Shown: positions 3,042 through 52,851 of the stretch, piece after piece
How the letters are laid out: every line of letters begins with the position of its first letter
How positions within the stretch are numbered: position 1 is the first letter of the stretch
Source of the DNA: Rhodospirillales bacterium
GTDB lineage: Bacteria > Pseudomonadota > Alphaproteobacteria > Rhodospirillales > SHVU01
Length of the DNA: 64,000 bases
NCBI GenBank assembly: GCA_009691105.1
Contig: SHVU01000007.1
Location: 1-64,000 of the forward strand
Direction: 5' to 3'
The notes under the pieces: model-generated
The model's database searches: none
The model's input: the letters and a program-made list of their open reading frames with translations, nothing else
What the model was told of the DNA's origin: nothing
Position numbers and translations under genes: made by a program

Positions 3042-4407
3042 AGACCGTTCATATTCTAACTTATGGCTGTCAGATGAACGTCTACGACTCGGCGCGGATG
3101 GCCGATGCGTTGAAGCCGTTTGGTTTTTCTGTCGTCGATGCCGCCGCCGACGCCGATCTGGTCGTTCTCAACACCTGTCATATCCGTGACAAGGCCGCCG
3201 AGAAGGTCTACTCCGAGCTCGGCCGTCTCGCCGAAGCCAAGGCCGAGCGCGCCATCCGTGGCCGGCCACTTTTGATCGCGGTCGCCGGTTGCGTCGCCCA
3301 AGCCGAGGGTGAAGAGATCCGGGCCCGCGCCCCCTCCGTCGACATCGTCATCGGGCCGCAGGCGTATCATCGGCTGCCCGGACTCGTCGCCGAGGCCGAG
3401 CGCGCCGGCGGCTTCGGACTCGATATCGATTTTCCGGTCGAATCCAAATTCGATCACTTGCCAGCGGTCGATGCCGCGAGCGCCACCATCGACGGAACGT
3501 CGGCGTTTCTGACCGTGCAGGAAGGCTGCGACAAGTTCTGTTCGTTCTGCGTTGTGCCCTATACGCGCGGCGCCGAGACGTCGCGTCCCGTCACCCAGGT
3601 GCTGGCCGAAGCCCGTGTCTTGGCGCTGGCCGGCGTTCGCGAAATCACGCTGCTCGGCCAAAACGTAAACAACTATCACGGTGCGGCGCCGTCAGGTCCG
3701 GGCGACTGGAGTCTCGGACGCTTGATCGCGACGCTGGCCGAGATCGACGGTATCGATCGTATCCGCTACACGACGTCCTATCCCGCCGACGTCGATGACG
3801 ATCTGATCGCGGCGCATCGCGACGTGCCGAAGCTGATGCCCTATCTGCATCTGCCGGTGCAGTCGGGGTCAGATTCTATTCTCGCCGCCATGGGCCGTCG
3901 TCACGACCGAGCCGCGTACTTCCGCCTGGTGGATCGCTTGAAGGCGGCCCGCCCCGACTTGGCGTTGGCTTCTGATTTCATCGTCGGCTTTCCCGGCGAA
4001 ACCGAAGGCGATTTTGCGGCGACCGTGGATCTTGTCGAGCGCATCGGCTTTGCTCAGGCCTATTCCTTCAAGTACAGCCCGCGACCTGGAACGCCGGCGG
4101 CGTCACTCGGCGGTCAAATTTCCGAAACCGAAAAGAGCGAGCGTCTGGCGCGGCTGCAAGTCGCGGTCGATCATCATCGGCTGCTTTTTAATCAGGCGAC
4201 TGCGGGGCGGACGATGCCGGTGCTGTTCGAACGCCACGGTCGTCGTGCCGGCCAGCTCATCGGCCGCTCGCCGTATATGCAACCTGTCCACGTCGACGCA
4301 TCGGACCGCCACATCGGTCGGATTCTTCCGGTGGCGGTCGTCGCCGGTTATGCCAACAGCTTGGAAGGGCGTATCGCCATGTCGTCCGAAGCCGTACCGG
4401 TGCCCGC

Positions 4408-4411
<4 letters not shown>
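3038..4411 (+). CDS. miaB: tRNA-2-methylthio-N6-dimethylallyladenosine synthase MiaB
   Basis: A 457-residue radical-SAM methylthiotransferase that adds the 2-methylthio group to i6A37 of tRNAs. N-terminal cluster Cys residues are at 11 (CQMN), 47 (NTCHIR) and 85 (AGCVAQ); the radical-SAM cluster is CDKFCSFC (164, 168, 171). A TRAM-type domain closes the protein. The GTG at 3038 gives the canonical start [13 protein letters not shown] and overlaps the fur stop; longer starts would add a non-family Arg-rich extension. It overlaps phoH by ATGA, implying translational coupling. Confidence 0.97.
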
Positions 4412-5436
<1,025 letters not shown>

Positions 5437-5913
5437 TCGCATCCATCTTCGACTGACCGCTCCGGCATGGCGTGCCGCGGTGCCGGCGGTCGAGCGCGTC
5501 GTCGACCGTGCCGCCCGTGCCGCTCTGGCGACGGCCCGCAGCGCGCAGGGCCGCGACGTCTCGTTGGTGCTGGCCGGCGATGCCCGGGTCCGCGCCCTCA
5601 ACCGGCGCTGGCGGCGGCGCGACAAGGCCACCAATGTTCTGGCGTTTCCGGCCGGCCCGATGCCGGCCATTCCCAATGCGCCCCACCCGTTGGGCGACGT
5701 CATTATTGCCCTGGGCGTCGCCCGGGCCGAGGCCCGCCGCGGCGGCATGACCCTGGCCGCCCACTTATCGCACCTTGTAGTTCATGGTATTCTCCACCTT
5801 CTCGGTCACGATCATGAGACCGCGGCCGAGGCCACACGCATGGAACGCTTGGAAACCCGAACGCTCGCCGCCCTTGGATTCTCCGACCCCTACGCGGGGT
5901 TTGAGGGCGACGT

Positions 5914-6828
5914 ATGAACGATCGACCTCCCCCGCCGCCGGGACCCTCCGGCGGCGCTGACGCGACGTCGCTGGCCCGTTCGCTCGCCGACTGGTGGGCG
6001 GCGTGGCGCAAATCCCGCAACGGCCAAGTCTCGACGCGCGAAGCTCTGCAAGAGCTGATCGAATCCGACACCGGCGCCCATCCGATCGGGCGCGAAGAAC
6101 GCACCATCCTTGCCAACGTGCTCGAGTTGCGCGGCTCGACCGTCGCCGACTTCATGGTGCCGCGGGTCGATATCATCGCCGTCGAAGCGCATTCGTCCTG
6201 GGATGACGTAATCGCCTTGATGACGAAGTCTGGGCATTCGCGCTTGCCGGTGTTCCGCCAAACCCTCGACGACGTCATTGGCATGGTCCACGTCAAGGAC
6301 GTGATCGCGCTGCGCGGTCAGGCCAAACTGTTCGCGTTGGTCGACATCGTCCGTCGGGTGCTGTTCGTGGCGCCGAGCATGCGTGTCCTCGAACTTCTGC
6401 TCGAGATGCGCGTGACGCGCTCGCACATGGCGCTGGTCGTCGACGAATACGGCGGCGTCGACGGCTTGGTGACGATCGAAGATCTCGTCGGCGAAATCGT
6501 CGGCGAGATTGCCGACGAACACGACACCGACGTCGAGCCGAAGATCATGCGCGCCGCCAACGGCACGCTGGAAGCCGACGCTCGAGTTTCGCTAGAAGCC
6601 CTCGAAGAAATGGTCGGGCCGGTGTTGAGCGACGACGAGCGGCGCAGCGCCGATACGCTCGGTGGTCTGGTCGCGGCCTTGGCCGGACGCATGCCGATCC
6701 GTGGCGAACTGGTTACCCATCCGTCGGGACTTGAATTCGAAATCGTCGACGTCGATCCGCGTCGCGTCAAACGGCTTCGTCTGCGTCTTCGGCGCAGTTC
6801 CGAGCAGTCCCCACCCCCAGCCCACTAG
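5914..6828 (+). CDS. corC: CorC/HlyC family CBS-domain protein
   Basis: A 304-residue soluble protein with a central CBS pair (about residues 80-205; DFMVPRVDIIAV and the MALVVDEYGGVDGLVTIEDL signature) and a C-terminal CorC/HlyC transporter-associated domain (about 215-298). There is no transmembrane DUF21 part, so it is the short CorC type, implicated in Mg/Co homeostasis and, by constant linkage to ybeY and lnt, in envelope maintenance. The N-terminus is Pro-rich. It starts in a 4-base overlap with ybeY and ends six bases before lnt. Confidence 0.93.
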   Translation: MNDRPPPPPGPSGGADATSLARSLADWWAAWRKSRNGQVSTREALQELIESDTGAHPIGREERTILANVLELRGSTVADFMVPRVDIIAVEAHSSWDDVIALMTKSGHSRLPVFRQTLDDVIGMVHVKDVIALRGQAKLFALVDIVRRVLFVAPSMRVLELLLEMRVTRSHMALVVDEYGGVDGLVTIEDLVGEIVGEIADEHDTDVEPKIMRAANGTLEADARVSLEALEEMVGPVLSDDERRSADTLGGLVAALAGRMPIRGELVTHPSGLEFEIVDVDPRRVKRLRLRLRRSSEQSPPPAH

Positions 6829-49152: not shown

Positions 49153-49368
49153 TCAGGCTTGCGGGCGGACTTTGGACTTGAGGCGAGCCTCGATGGCGCG
49201 CCAGGATTTCTCAAGACCGGATCGGTATTCGTTGGCGGTGAATTCGCGGCCGCATCCCATGCACAGAACGGGGCCGAACGGGTTGCGCTCGGGATCGAAA
49301 CCGCCGGGGTGACGGTTCTGGCTCTCACCGCATTTCGGACAGATTACCGGGACGAGCTTCGTCGCCAT
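49153..49368 (-). CDS. Small double-CxxC zinc-ribbon protein
   Basis: A 71-residue protein with two Cys pairs, CPKCGE (residues 10-13) and CMGCGRE, spaced about 25 residues as in a zinc ribbon, then a basic helical tail [19 protein letters not shown] do not recognise a family. It overlaps the end of the uxs gene by 25 bases on the same strand, so it is likely cotranscribed. Its stop lies three bases from the asnB stop. Confidence 0.7.
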
Positions 49369-50342
49369 GATTGCACCTCACTGTCGCGGCCGACGACAGT
49401 CCGGAAATAGGCGATGGTCCGCTTGAGACCTTCGTCGATCCCGACTCCAGGCTCCCAGCCCAGCACACGGCGAGCGAGAGCGATGTCGGGACAGCGCTGG
49501 ACCGGATCATCGGCCGGCAACGGGTTATGCACGATCTTCGCGGCCGACGCGGTGACGGCGATCACTTTTTCGGCCAAGGCTTGAATCGTGAACTCGACGG
49601 GATTGCCAAGATTGATCGGACCGGTCGTTCCCTCCGGCGCGTCCATCAGACGCATCAACCCTTCGACCAGATCGTCGACGTAGCAGAAGGCGCGGGTCTG
49701 CTTGCCGTTGCCGTAGACGGTGATCGGTTCGCCCTTCAAAGCCTGGACGATGAAGTTCGAGACGACGCGGCCGTCGTTGGGATGCATGCGCGGGCCGTAG
49801 GTGTTGAAAATCCGCGCGACGCGAATCTCCAGGCCGTGCTGGCGGTGGTAATCGAAGAACAACGTTTCGGCGCAGCGCTTACCTTCGTCGTAGCAGGCGC
49901 GGATGCCGATCGGATTGACGTTGCCGCGATAGCTCTCGGGCTGCGGATGAATTTCCGGATCGCCGTAAACCTCGCTGGTCGAGGCTTGCAGGATCTTCGC
50001 CTTGGTCCGCTTGGCGAGCCCCAGCATGTTGATGGCGCCGTGGACCGAGGTCTTGGTCGTCTGCACCGGATCGTACTGGTAGTGAATCGGCGAGGCCGGA
50101 CAGGCGAGGTTGTAGATCTCGTCGACCTCGACGTAGAGCGGAAATGTCACGTCGTGGCGCAGGAACTCGAAGTGCGGGTTACCCAGCAGCTCTTCGATGT
50201 TGTCCTTGGTGCCGGTGAAGAAGTTGTCGACACAGAGCACGTCGTGGCCGGCCGCGACCAGACGCTCGCAGAGATGCGAGCCGAGGAAGCCGGCGCCGCC
50301 GGTCACGAGCACGCGTTTCCGCGAATAGCCGAGCCGAGCCAT
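49344..50342 (-). CDS. UDP-glucuronate decarboxylase-like SDR epimerase
   Basis: A 332-residue extended SDR enzyme converting UDP-glucuronate to UDP-xylose, a surface-polysaccharide precursor. [48 protein letters not shown], and [15 protein letters not shown] with the family's catalytic Tyr and Lys are characteristic of UXS. ATG 50342 ([10 protein letters not shown]) fits better than a longer start. It ends just inside the zinc-ribbon gene. Confidence 0.93.
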
Positions 50343-50413: not shown

Positions 50414-50776
50414 TCAGGTGGCGAGAAACCGTTGGGTCGTGCCGTCCAGCACCAGGGCGGTCAGGCGGCCCGGCGCAAAGGCGCCGGTGTCGATGCCGAT
50501 CCGGCTGGATCGGACCTCGGGCTCGGGGTGGATGGTGTGGCCGTGGACGACGATCTTGCCGAACGGATCGTCAGAGCGCAGGAACTCGTCGCGGATCCAT
50601 AACAGATCAACTTCGCGTTGCTTGTCGAGGGCGACGCCGGGGCGGACCCCGGCATGGACGAACAGGTAATCGCCGACTTCATGGCGCAGGGCGAGATTTC
50701 GGAAGAACTCAAAGTGCCGGGACGGCAACGCGTTGCGGAACCGGTGCCGAAGCTCCGTCAGTCCGTCAGGCCCGAG
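50414..50776 (-). pseudogene. C-terminal fragment of a metallophosphatase
   Basis: The minus-strand frame encodes a calcineurin-like serine/threonine-phosphatase C-terminal half: [54 protein letters not shown], and [17 protein letters not shown]. The N-terminal metal motifs GDIHG, GDxxDRG and GNHE are absent. Although the frame stays open to 51265, the residues beyond about 50776 are antisense to the EAL fragment and unlike the family. The gene has therefore lost its 5' half. Confidence 0.75.
50754..50769. repeat. 8-bp tandem repeat at the phosphatase/EAL junction
   Basis: TCCGTCAG is present twice without a gap (50754-50761, 50762-50769), exactly where homology switches from the phosphatase (left, minus strand) to the EAL protein (right, plus strand). 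Confidence 0.9.
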
Positions 50777-51223
50777 TTCATGATGTTCGACGACGCCGTG
50801 CCTGCCAGCAGGCGCGATCATCTCATCGTCGAGATCCAGATGGTCGACGCGCTGTCGAACCTGTCGGCCTTCGCCTTCGCGCGCCGCTTCGTTCAGGACC
50901 GCGGCTACCACGTCGCTCTCGACGGGGTGACTCATCGCACGCTGGGCCTCGTCGATCGCGACCGCCTGGACGTCGATTACGTCAAGCTGATCTGGAGCCA
51001 GGACTTCGCCGACCGCGACGTCGCGTCGCGCAGTCAGACCCTGATCCATCGGATTAGCGAGGCGCGCACCGTGCTCTGCCGCCGCGACGATCGTGACGCC
51101 GTCGACCGCGGCATCGATCTCGGCATCGGCGTTTTCCAAGGCCGTCAGGTCGAAACGCTGATCGCCGAAGAAAACCGCAAGCGCGAGCTGCGCCGGCTGA
51201 AGCGCCGGATCGAAGGATCGTGA
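50759..51223 (+). pseudogene. 5'-truncated degenerate EAL-domain protein
   Basis: The plus-strand frame from about 50759 encodes the C-terminal half of an EAL-like domain: SVRPEFMMF, LIVEIQMVDAL, FARRFVQDRGYHVALDGV, VDYVKLIW and GVFQGRQVETLIAEE, then a basic tail. The DDFGTG catalytic loop is replaced (LDGVTHRT), so it was probably not an active c-di-GMP phosphodiesterase even when complete. The N-terminal half is missing; the frame upstream is antisense to the phosphatase. ATGs at 50780/50783 could start a short protein. Fourteen bases before the ABC ATPase gene. Confidence 0.7.
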
Positions 51224-51236
51224 CGGCGGCGACGCA

Positions 51237-52015
51237 ATGATCGAACCCGCGCCGCGTTCCGCCATCGTCGTCGAAGACCTGAGTAAGACCTATGGTCCGA
51301 TCACCGCGGTCGATTCGATCAATTTCGCGATCGGCGAGGGCTCGACCACCGGCTTGCTTGGCGGCAATGGCGCCGGCAAGACGACGACGCTGTCGATGCT
51401 GCTTGGCTTGCTGATTCCGACGGCTGGCAAGATTTCGATCTTCGGCGAGGACATGCTGCGGCATCGCTACCGCGTCTTGGCGTGGATGAACTTCTCCTCG
51501 CCCTATGTCGATCTGCCGAAACGCCTCAGCGTCCGCGAGATGCTGAAGGTCTATGGCCATCTCTATGGCGTCAAAGGAATCCGCGACCGCGTCGCGGCGC
51601 TGGCCCGCGATCTCGACCTCGAAGACATTCTCAAGCGGCCCATCGGCGCCTTGTCGTCGGGCCAGGTCACTCGCGCCGCCTTGGCCAAGTCTCTGGTCAA
51701 CGAGCCGCGTCTGCTGCTTCTCGACGAACCGACCGAGTCTCTTGATCCTGACACTGCCGATTGGGTGCGAAGCTTTCTGGAAGGCTATCGCCACCGCACC
51801 GGCGCGACGTTCCTGATCGCGTCCCACAACATGGCCGAGGTCGACGGCTCTGCGATCGAGTCCTGATCATGCGGTCCGGCCATATCGTCGATCAGGGCCC
51901 GCCCGCCGATCTCATCGCTCGCTACGGGCGCAGCAATCTCGAAGAAGTCTTCCTCGATATCGCTCGTGACCGCGAAGGTATCGAACGTCGCACCGGTCGG
52001 CGGGCGGTGTCATGA
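51237..52015 (+). pseudogene. ABC transporter ATP-binding protein, frameshifted
   Basis: An ABC-2-type exporter ATPase. Frame one (51237-51866, 209 codons) contains Walker A GGNGAGKT, signature LSSGQ, Walker B LLLLDEPTESLDP and the H-loop ASHN, then goes off track (VDGSAIES, stop). From about 51845 the next frame continues the expected sequence RLCDRVLIMRSGHIVDQG to the stop at 52015, which overlaps the permease ATG. One base appears missing at 51843-51845. It may be a pseudogene, a sequencing error, or a short ATPase that still works, since all nucleotide-binding motifs lie before the shift. Confidence 0.8.
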
Positions 52016-52851
52016 GCGAGCCGATGCGCGATCATCCGCCCGTGCCGCGCGCCATCCTGTTTTCGTGGGGGCGTATCGGGGCGATGCTGTTGCGTCACTT
52101 CTACGTCATGCGGCGATCCTGGACGCGGCTCTTCGAGCTCGCCTATTGGCCGACCGCGCAGATGGTGCTGTGGGGTTTCATCACCGTCTTCTCCATGCAG
52201 CGCTCGTCGTGGGTCGCCCGGGCCTCGGGCGTTTTGCTCAGTGCCGCGTTGCTCTGGGACACGCTGTTCCGCTCGAACTTCGGGGTCAGCGTCAGTTTCT
52301 TGGAAGAACTCTGGGCGCGAACTCTCGGGCAGCTATTCGTGAGCCCGCTCCGCGTTCACGAGCTTCTGATCTCGCTTCTCATTATGAGCGGGATCCGAAC
52401 CATCATCGGCATCGTTCCGGCGGCAATCCTGGCGATCCAGCTTTATGGCGTGTCGCTGTTCGATCTGGGGCTGCCACTCATCGCCTTCTTCACCAATCTT
52501 CTGGTGATGGGTTGGGCGATCGGCTTGTTCTCGGCCGGCCTGGTGTTGCGCTACGGTCTTGCTGCCGAGAGCTTCTGCTGGGGGGTCGTCTTCCTGCTGG
52601 CGCCATTGAGCGGCGTTTACTATCCGTTGGATACGCTGCCGGTGTGGCTCCAGCCGGTGGCTCTGACTCTGCCCTCGACGTATGTCTTCGAAGGGATGCG
52701 CGCCGTTCTGTTTGACCACACGTTCCGACTCGATCTGTTGGCCGGCGCGGTCGGCTTGAATATTTTCTATCTCGCCGTGACCTGGATCTTCTTTCTCTGG
52801 ATCTTCCGCATCGCCCTGATCCGTGGGCTCCTGATGCAGCAGTGTGAATAA
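52012..52851 (+). CDS. ABC-2 type transporter permease
   Basis: A 279-residue integral membrane protein, about six hydrophobic spans, for example AILAIQLYGVSLFDLGLPL, FFTNLLVMGWAIGLFSAGLV, and FYLAVTWIFFLWIF; PLSGVYYPLDTLPVWLQP is the typical ABC-2 loop. Substrate unknown; such exporters move polysaccharides, lipids or drugs. Its ATG overlaps the stop of the frameshifted ATPase (ATGA). Itself intact. Confidence 0.88.
   Translation: MSEPMRDHPPVPRAILFSWGRIGAMLLRHFYVMRRSWTRLFELAYWPTAQMVLWGFITVFSMQRSSWVARASGVLLSAALLWDTLFRSNFGVSVSFLEELWARTLGQLFVSPLRVHELLISLLIMSGIRTIIGIVPAAILAIQLYGVSLFDLGLPLIAFFTNLLVMGWAIGLFSAGLVLRYGLAAESFCWGVVFLLAPLSGVYYPLDTLPVWLQPVALTLPSTYVFEGMRAVLFDHTFRLDLLAGAVGLNIFYLAVTWIFFLWIFRIALIRGLLMQQCE

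Follow-up and report, generated by a model that had tools for sequence, protein, structure and literature searches.

Two headless gene remnants at a probable 2.6-kb deletion join in a draft Rhodospirillales genome

Introduction

How two genes on opposite strands come to lose their beginnings at one and the same point is the question raised by a junction in a Rhodospirillales genome. The window, i.e., the whole stretch of 64,000 nucleotides that was analysed (contig C7:1-64000), belongs to a draft assembly of 1.88 Mb in 54 contigs, with 85% completeness and 0.5% contamination. The initial annotation proposed a single deletion between two divergent genes, or else an assembly chimera. The locus was compared with 59 relatives, which share its order but not its family, and a scan of the contigs of named genomes returned distant relatives only. 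Gene order was compared across 19 loci (L071-L089), comprising 18 loci from the relatives and one from a Magnetospirillum MAG, and some of these loci stop at a contig end. Loss of about 2.6 kb in a single deletion event very probably explains the junction as judged from sequence comparison, and it is known from this one genome, which is 85% complete.

The junction and its two remnants

The features at the junction are as follows.

49344-50342, minus strand: intact NAD-dependent epimerase/dehydratase, left flank, syntenic (Pfam PF16363/PF01370; 73-88% identity to relatives)
50414-50776, minus strand: remnant of a metallophosphatase (MPP), the C-terminal ~46% of a calcineurin-like phosphatase (homology to relatives)
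50754-50769, no strand: two tandem copies of TCCGTCAG, inside MPP-homologous sequence (sequence and residue scoring)
50771-50776, no strand: CCCGAG, overlap of the MPP and EAL-B homologies, putative microhomology at the join (residue scoring)
50771-51223, plus strand: remnant of EAL-B, the C-terminal ~36% of a degenerate EAL protein (homology to relatives)
51237-51866, plus strand: ABC transporter ATPase, the reading frame ending early through a one-base frameshift near 51845 (Pfam PF00005; relatives)
51847-52015, plus strand: C-terminal end of the ABC ATPase, out of frame (relatives)
52012-52851, plus strand: intact ABC permease, right flank, syntenic (synteny; weak NCBIfam DrrB-type match)
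50414-51265, minus strand: 283-codon open frame spanning the junction, made up of the MPP remnant and the antisense of EAL-B and unlikely to be a gene (open reading frame list)

Alignment with full-length relatives bears out the reading of two genes that lack their 5' parts, with the last ~46% of a metallophosphatase on the minus strand to the left and the last ~36% of an EAL-like protein on the plus strand to the right. The best relatives of the MPP remnant are 55-62% identical (E down to 8e-45), and those of the EAL-B remnant are up to 60% identical (E 6e-55). The MPP remnant gives no match to PF00149, which a functional calcineurin-like phosphatase should match and which its full-length relatives match at 47-55 bits; the metal-site motifs of these relatives (GDIHGR, GDYxDRG, and GNHE) fall in the missing N-terminal half. 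The EAL-B remnant scores 14.6 bits against the PF00563 cut-off of 31.3 for an EAL domain protein, in a degenerate family whose intact members themselves score 17-37 bits. We infer that both headless remnants are non-functional.

Neither remnant contains a stop codon, and their third-position GC values (0.83 and 0.85) are coding-like, as in intact genes. Hence, the event is either recent or not real. The divergence of the MPP remnant resembles that of its relatives, and the EAL-B remnant has a rather long branch, as do the permease and cobT nearby.

Both frames are also open across the junction, as would be expected if the compact arrangement were a functional new gene or pair of genes, namely the 283-codon fusion on the minus strand or a 201-codon open reading frame on the plus strand. 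However, antisense frames in GC-rich DNA are often open, and each added part is the antisense of the other gene and carries no domain. Moreover, MPP is without its metal-binding N-terminus, and the alignment scores drop below zero immediately beyond the join. That the compact arrangement is a functional new gene or pair is therefore barely credible, and it is just as hard to credit that the join gave rise to a novel protein expressed from the minus strand, with an MPP tail and a new N-terminus from antisense EAL-B, which selection has retained. A fused minus-strand gene was considered when BLAST without composition correction crossed the junction in a few relatives, and was rejected because its N-terminal part scores negatively and is devoid of any motif or domain. 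The same compact arrangement, which the initial annotation had named as the finding that would speak against a deletion, was sought in the 59 relatives and found in none.

Position of the breakpoint

For the placement of the breakpoint, the MPP relatives were aligned by the conserved LP...VHAG stretch, with no gaps allowed, and scored residue by residue. The homology to MPP reaches the residue encoded at 50774-50776, and the scores are negative from 50777 onwards. The five MPP residues in dispute (LGPDG) reach 5.1, whereas the null averages -4.7 (p = 5e-5; 12 relatives with equal spacing); all 19 relatives together give p = 0.003. On the other side, the EAL-B relatives give strong scores from P-E-F at 50771 and none that are clear before it. 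The two homologies, each traced at the protein level on its own strand, thus overlap at CCCGAG (50771-50776). Short homologies are known deletion joins in bacteria, and such an overlap is the trace expected from a deletion between two short identical sequences. CCCGAG is probably a 6-bp microhomology at the join, although the MPP stretch at the breakpoint is variable among relatives, and the reading consequently leans on few residues.

The 8-bp tandem repeat at 50754-50769 (TCCGTCAG twice) is present as first described, but the homology does not switch exactly there; the switch lies just outside it, at 50771-50776. As a candidate breakpoint the repeat was rejected, for it reads in frame as MPP, lies wholly on the MPP side, and the switch comes after it. 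Tandem repeats of 8 bp number five in the 64-kb window against 2.4 expected from first-order simulations. No promoter consensus was found between 50300 and 51300, in a scan that carries little weight.

The locus in relatives and the missing DNA

All 19 loci share the order MPP (minus strand), EAL-A (plus strand), and EAL-B (plus strand), in which a paralogous pair of degenerate EAL proteins is divergent from MPP. The epimerase of the window adjoins MPP in 11 loci, EAL-B is followed by the window's ABC ATPase and permease in 15, and both flanks are as in the window in nine. By first in-frame starts, which are approximate, the start codons of MPP and EAL-A lie ~55-160 bp apart and EAL-A and EAL-B are spaced by 2-43 bp; EAL-A itself has ~415-420 codons. 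EAL-A, EAL-B, the ABC ATPase, and the permease likely form an operon. The cobT and/or cobS genes lie farther out in several of the loci.

In the window, the two flanks retain their ancestral order and orientation, but the DNA between them is absent. The residues that meet in the window are 2549-2729 bp apart in relatives (n=12), and these 2.55-2.73 kb comprise the 5' ~54% of MPP, the promoter region between the divergent starts, the entire EAL-A, and the 5' ~64% of EAL-B. The complete divergent copies that the initial annotation suggested looking for are present in relatives, at the same syntenic place and between flanking genes ordered as in the window, as for a deletion pseudogene. The proposal of a single deletion stands, except that the two genes were not neighbours, as EAL-A lay between them. 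Likewise, both starts and the shared promoter are gone as proposed, and the extent had been understated, for the whole of EAL-A is lost too and the deletion spans ~2.6 kb.

The same synteny bears on the chimera. Two homologies to different genes do meet abruptly, as they would in a chimera of two unrelated loci or organisms, but the flanks are several genes deep in ancestral order and orientation on both sides, and identities to relatives are ordinary on either side. Synteny nearly refutes this alternative, leaving it very improbable.

The missing segments were also sought elsewhere. Full-length EAL-A, MPP, and EAL-B of a relative (G016), used as queries against the window's own 85% complete genome, matched the remnants and nothing else, which speaks against a translocation. 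The three canonical EAL proteins of this genome are neither EAL-A nor EAL-B. Nor does PF00149 match anywhere in this 85% complete genome (G000), although it does in 14 of 14 control genomes.

An artefact of assembly or scaffolding inside the correct locus, where two contig ends were joined and the middle left out, is unlikely, though it carries more weight than the chimera. The assembly is a draft, the remnants are clean and undegraded, and a second lesion 1.1 kb from the join would suit a region that was assembled badly. However, ~6 bp of shared sequence would not suffice for a k-mer misjoin, no other contig carries the missing 2.6 kb (it could be unbinned), and the remainder of the window looks sound. 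The balance favours a deletion in the organism rather than in the assembly alone.

The block of MPP, EAL-A, and EAL-B is common to several families of the order, mostly with the ABC ATPase and permease and near cobT-cobS. A literature search for such a conserved block returned nothing, and it appears to be uncharacterised.

Mechanism and known parallels

One deletion would have taken EAL-A in its entirety, the promoter region between the divergent genes, the first half of MPP, and the first two thirds of EAL-B, and the ends were probably joined at CCCGAG, the putative 6-bp microhomology, by a route independent of Ku. A search of the 85% complete genome yielded no Ku protein, which makes Ku-free joining the simpler assumption as far as an incomplete genome can show. 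What is left would be a pair of non-functional remnants that abut by their cut ends, and a likely operon of EAL-A, EAL-B, ABC ATPase, and permease that has lost its start. As in deletions between short direct repeats, the intervening segment would be lost and one copy of the putative 6-bp overlap left, with no Ku found; here the overlap is read from protein homology on both strands and not from the ancestral DNA of the species. A literature search on repeats, deletion, and reduction found no paper.

The case is one of ordinary gene decay and an ordinary instance of a deletion pseudogene. In Salmonella, young pseudogenes are rapidly removed by deletion (PMC2916853). Similar to such pseudogenes, which reflect a deletional bias, unselected genes are here truncated or removed by what would be a young deletion with little further decay. 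Unlike them, one event would affect three genes and leave two remnants joined by their cut ends, and the present case is a single genome without strain comparison. The two open reading frames at the junction are to be annotated as remnants and not as genes; the finding has little meaning beyond annotation.

Decay of the module

The ABC ATPase starts 13 bp after the EAL-B remnant. Near 51845 its frame is shifted by one base in comparison with each of 15 relatives, which costs it the last ~55 codons. This frameshift may have arisen later or independently, which is what an end of selection on the module would lead one to expect. The chance that one random lesion of the window falls within 1.1 kb of the join is ~3%, which makes a shared cause, the decay of the operon after the loss of its start, attractive but not proven. 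The permease downstream is intact.

A codon-usage path through the window gave no other unexplained frame change on the same strand, in a survey that missed the ABC ATPase frameshift unaided; its candidates are gene boundaries with normal starts. A high indel rate behind the frameshift was rejected, as five apparent internal stops in the window proved to be gene boundaries (truB/rpsO, pnp, dut, rpsT, and lnt neighbourhoods). A 436-kb sample of the genome showed few abutting frame switches without a start, by a method that is insensitive.

Lesions of the module are seen once more in a different family. The locus L082 (G027:C5:58000-68500) has, at about 3762-6384, in-frame stops in both EAL genes, and EAL-B is frameshifted as well; either the module has decayed independently there, or the G027 assembly is in error. 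Several well-completed relatives have no MPP or EAL matches, and together with the G027 lesions this points to a dispensable module. Decay of the unit in both genomes suggests that the cell can do without it and that its members may function jointly.
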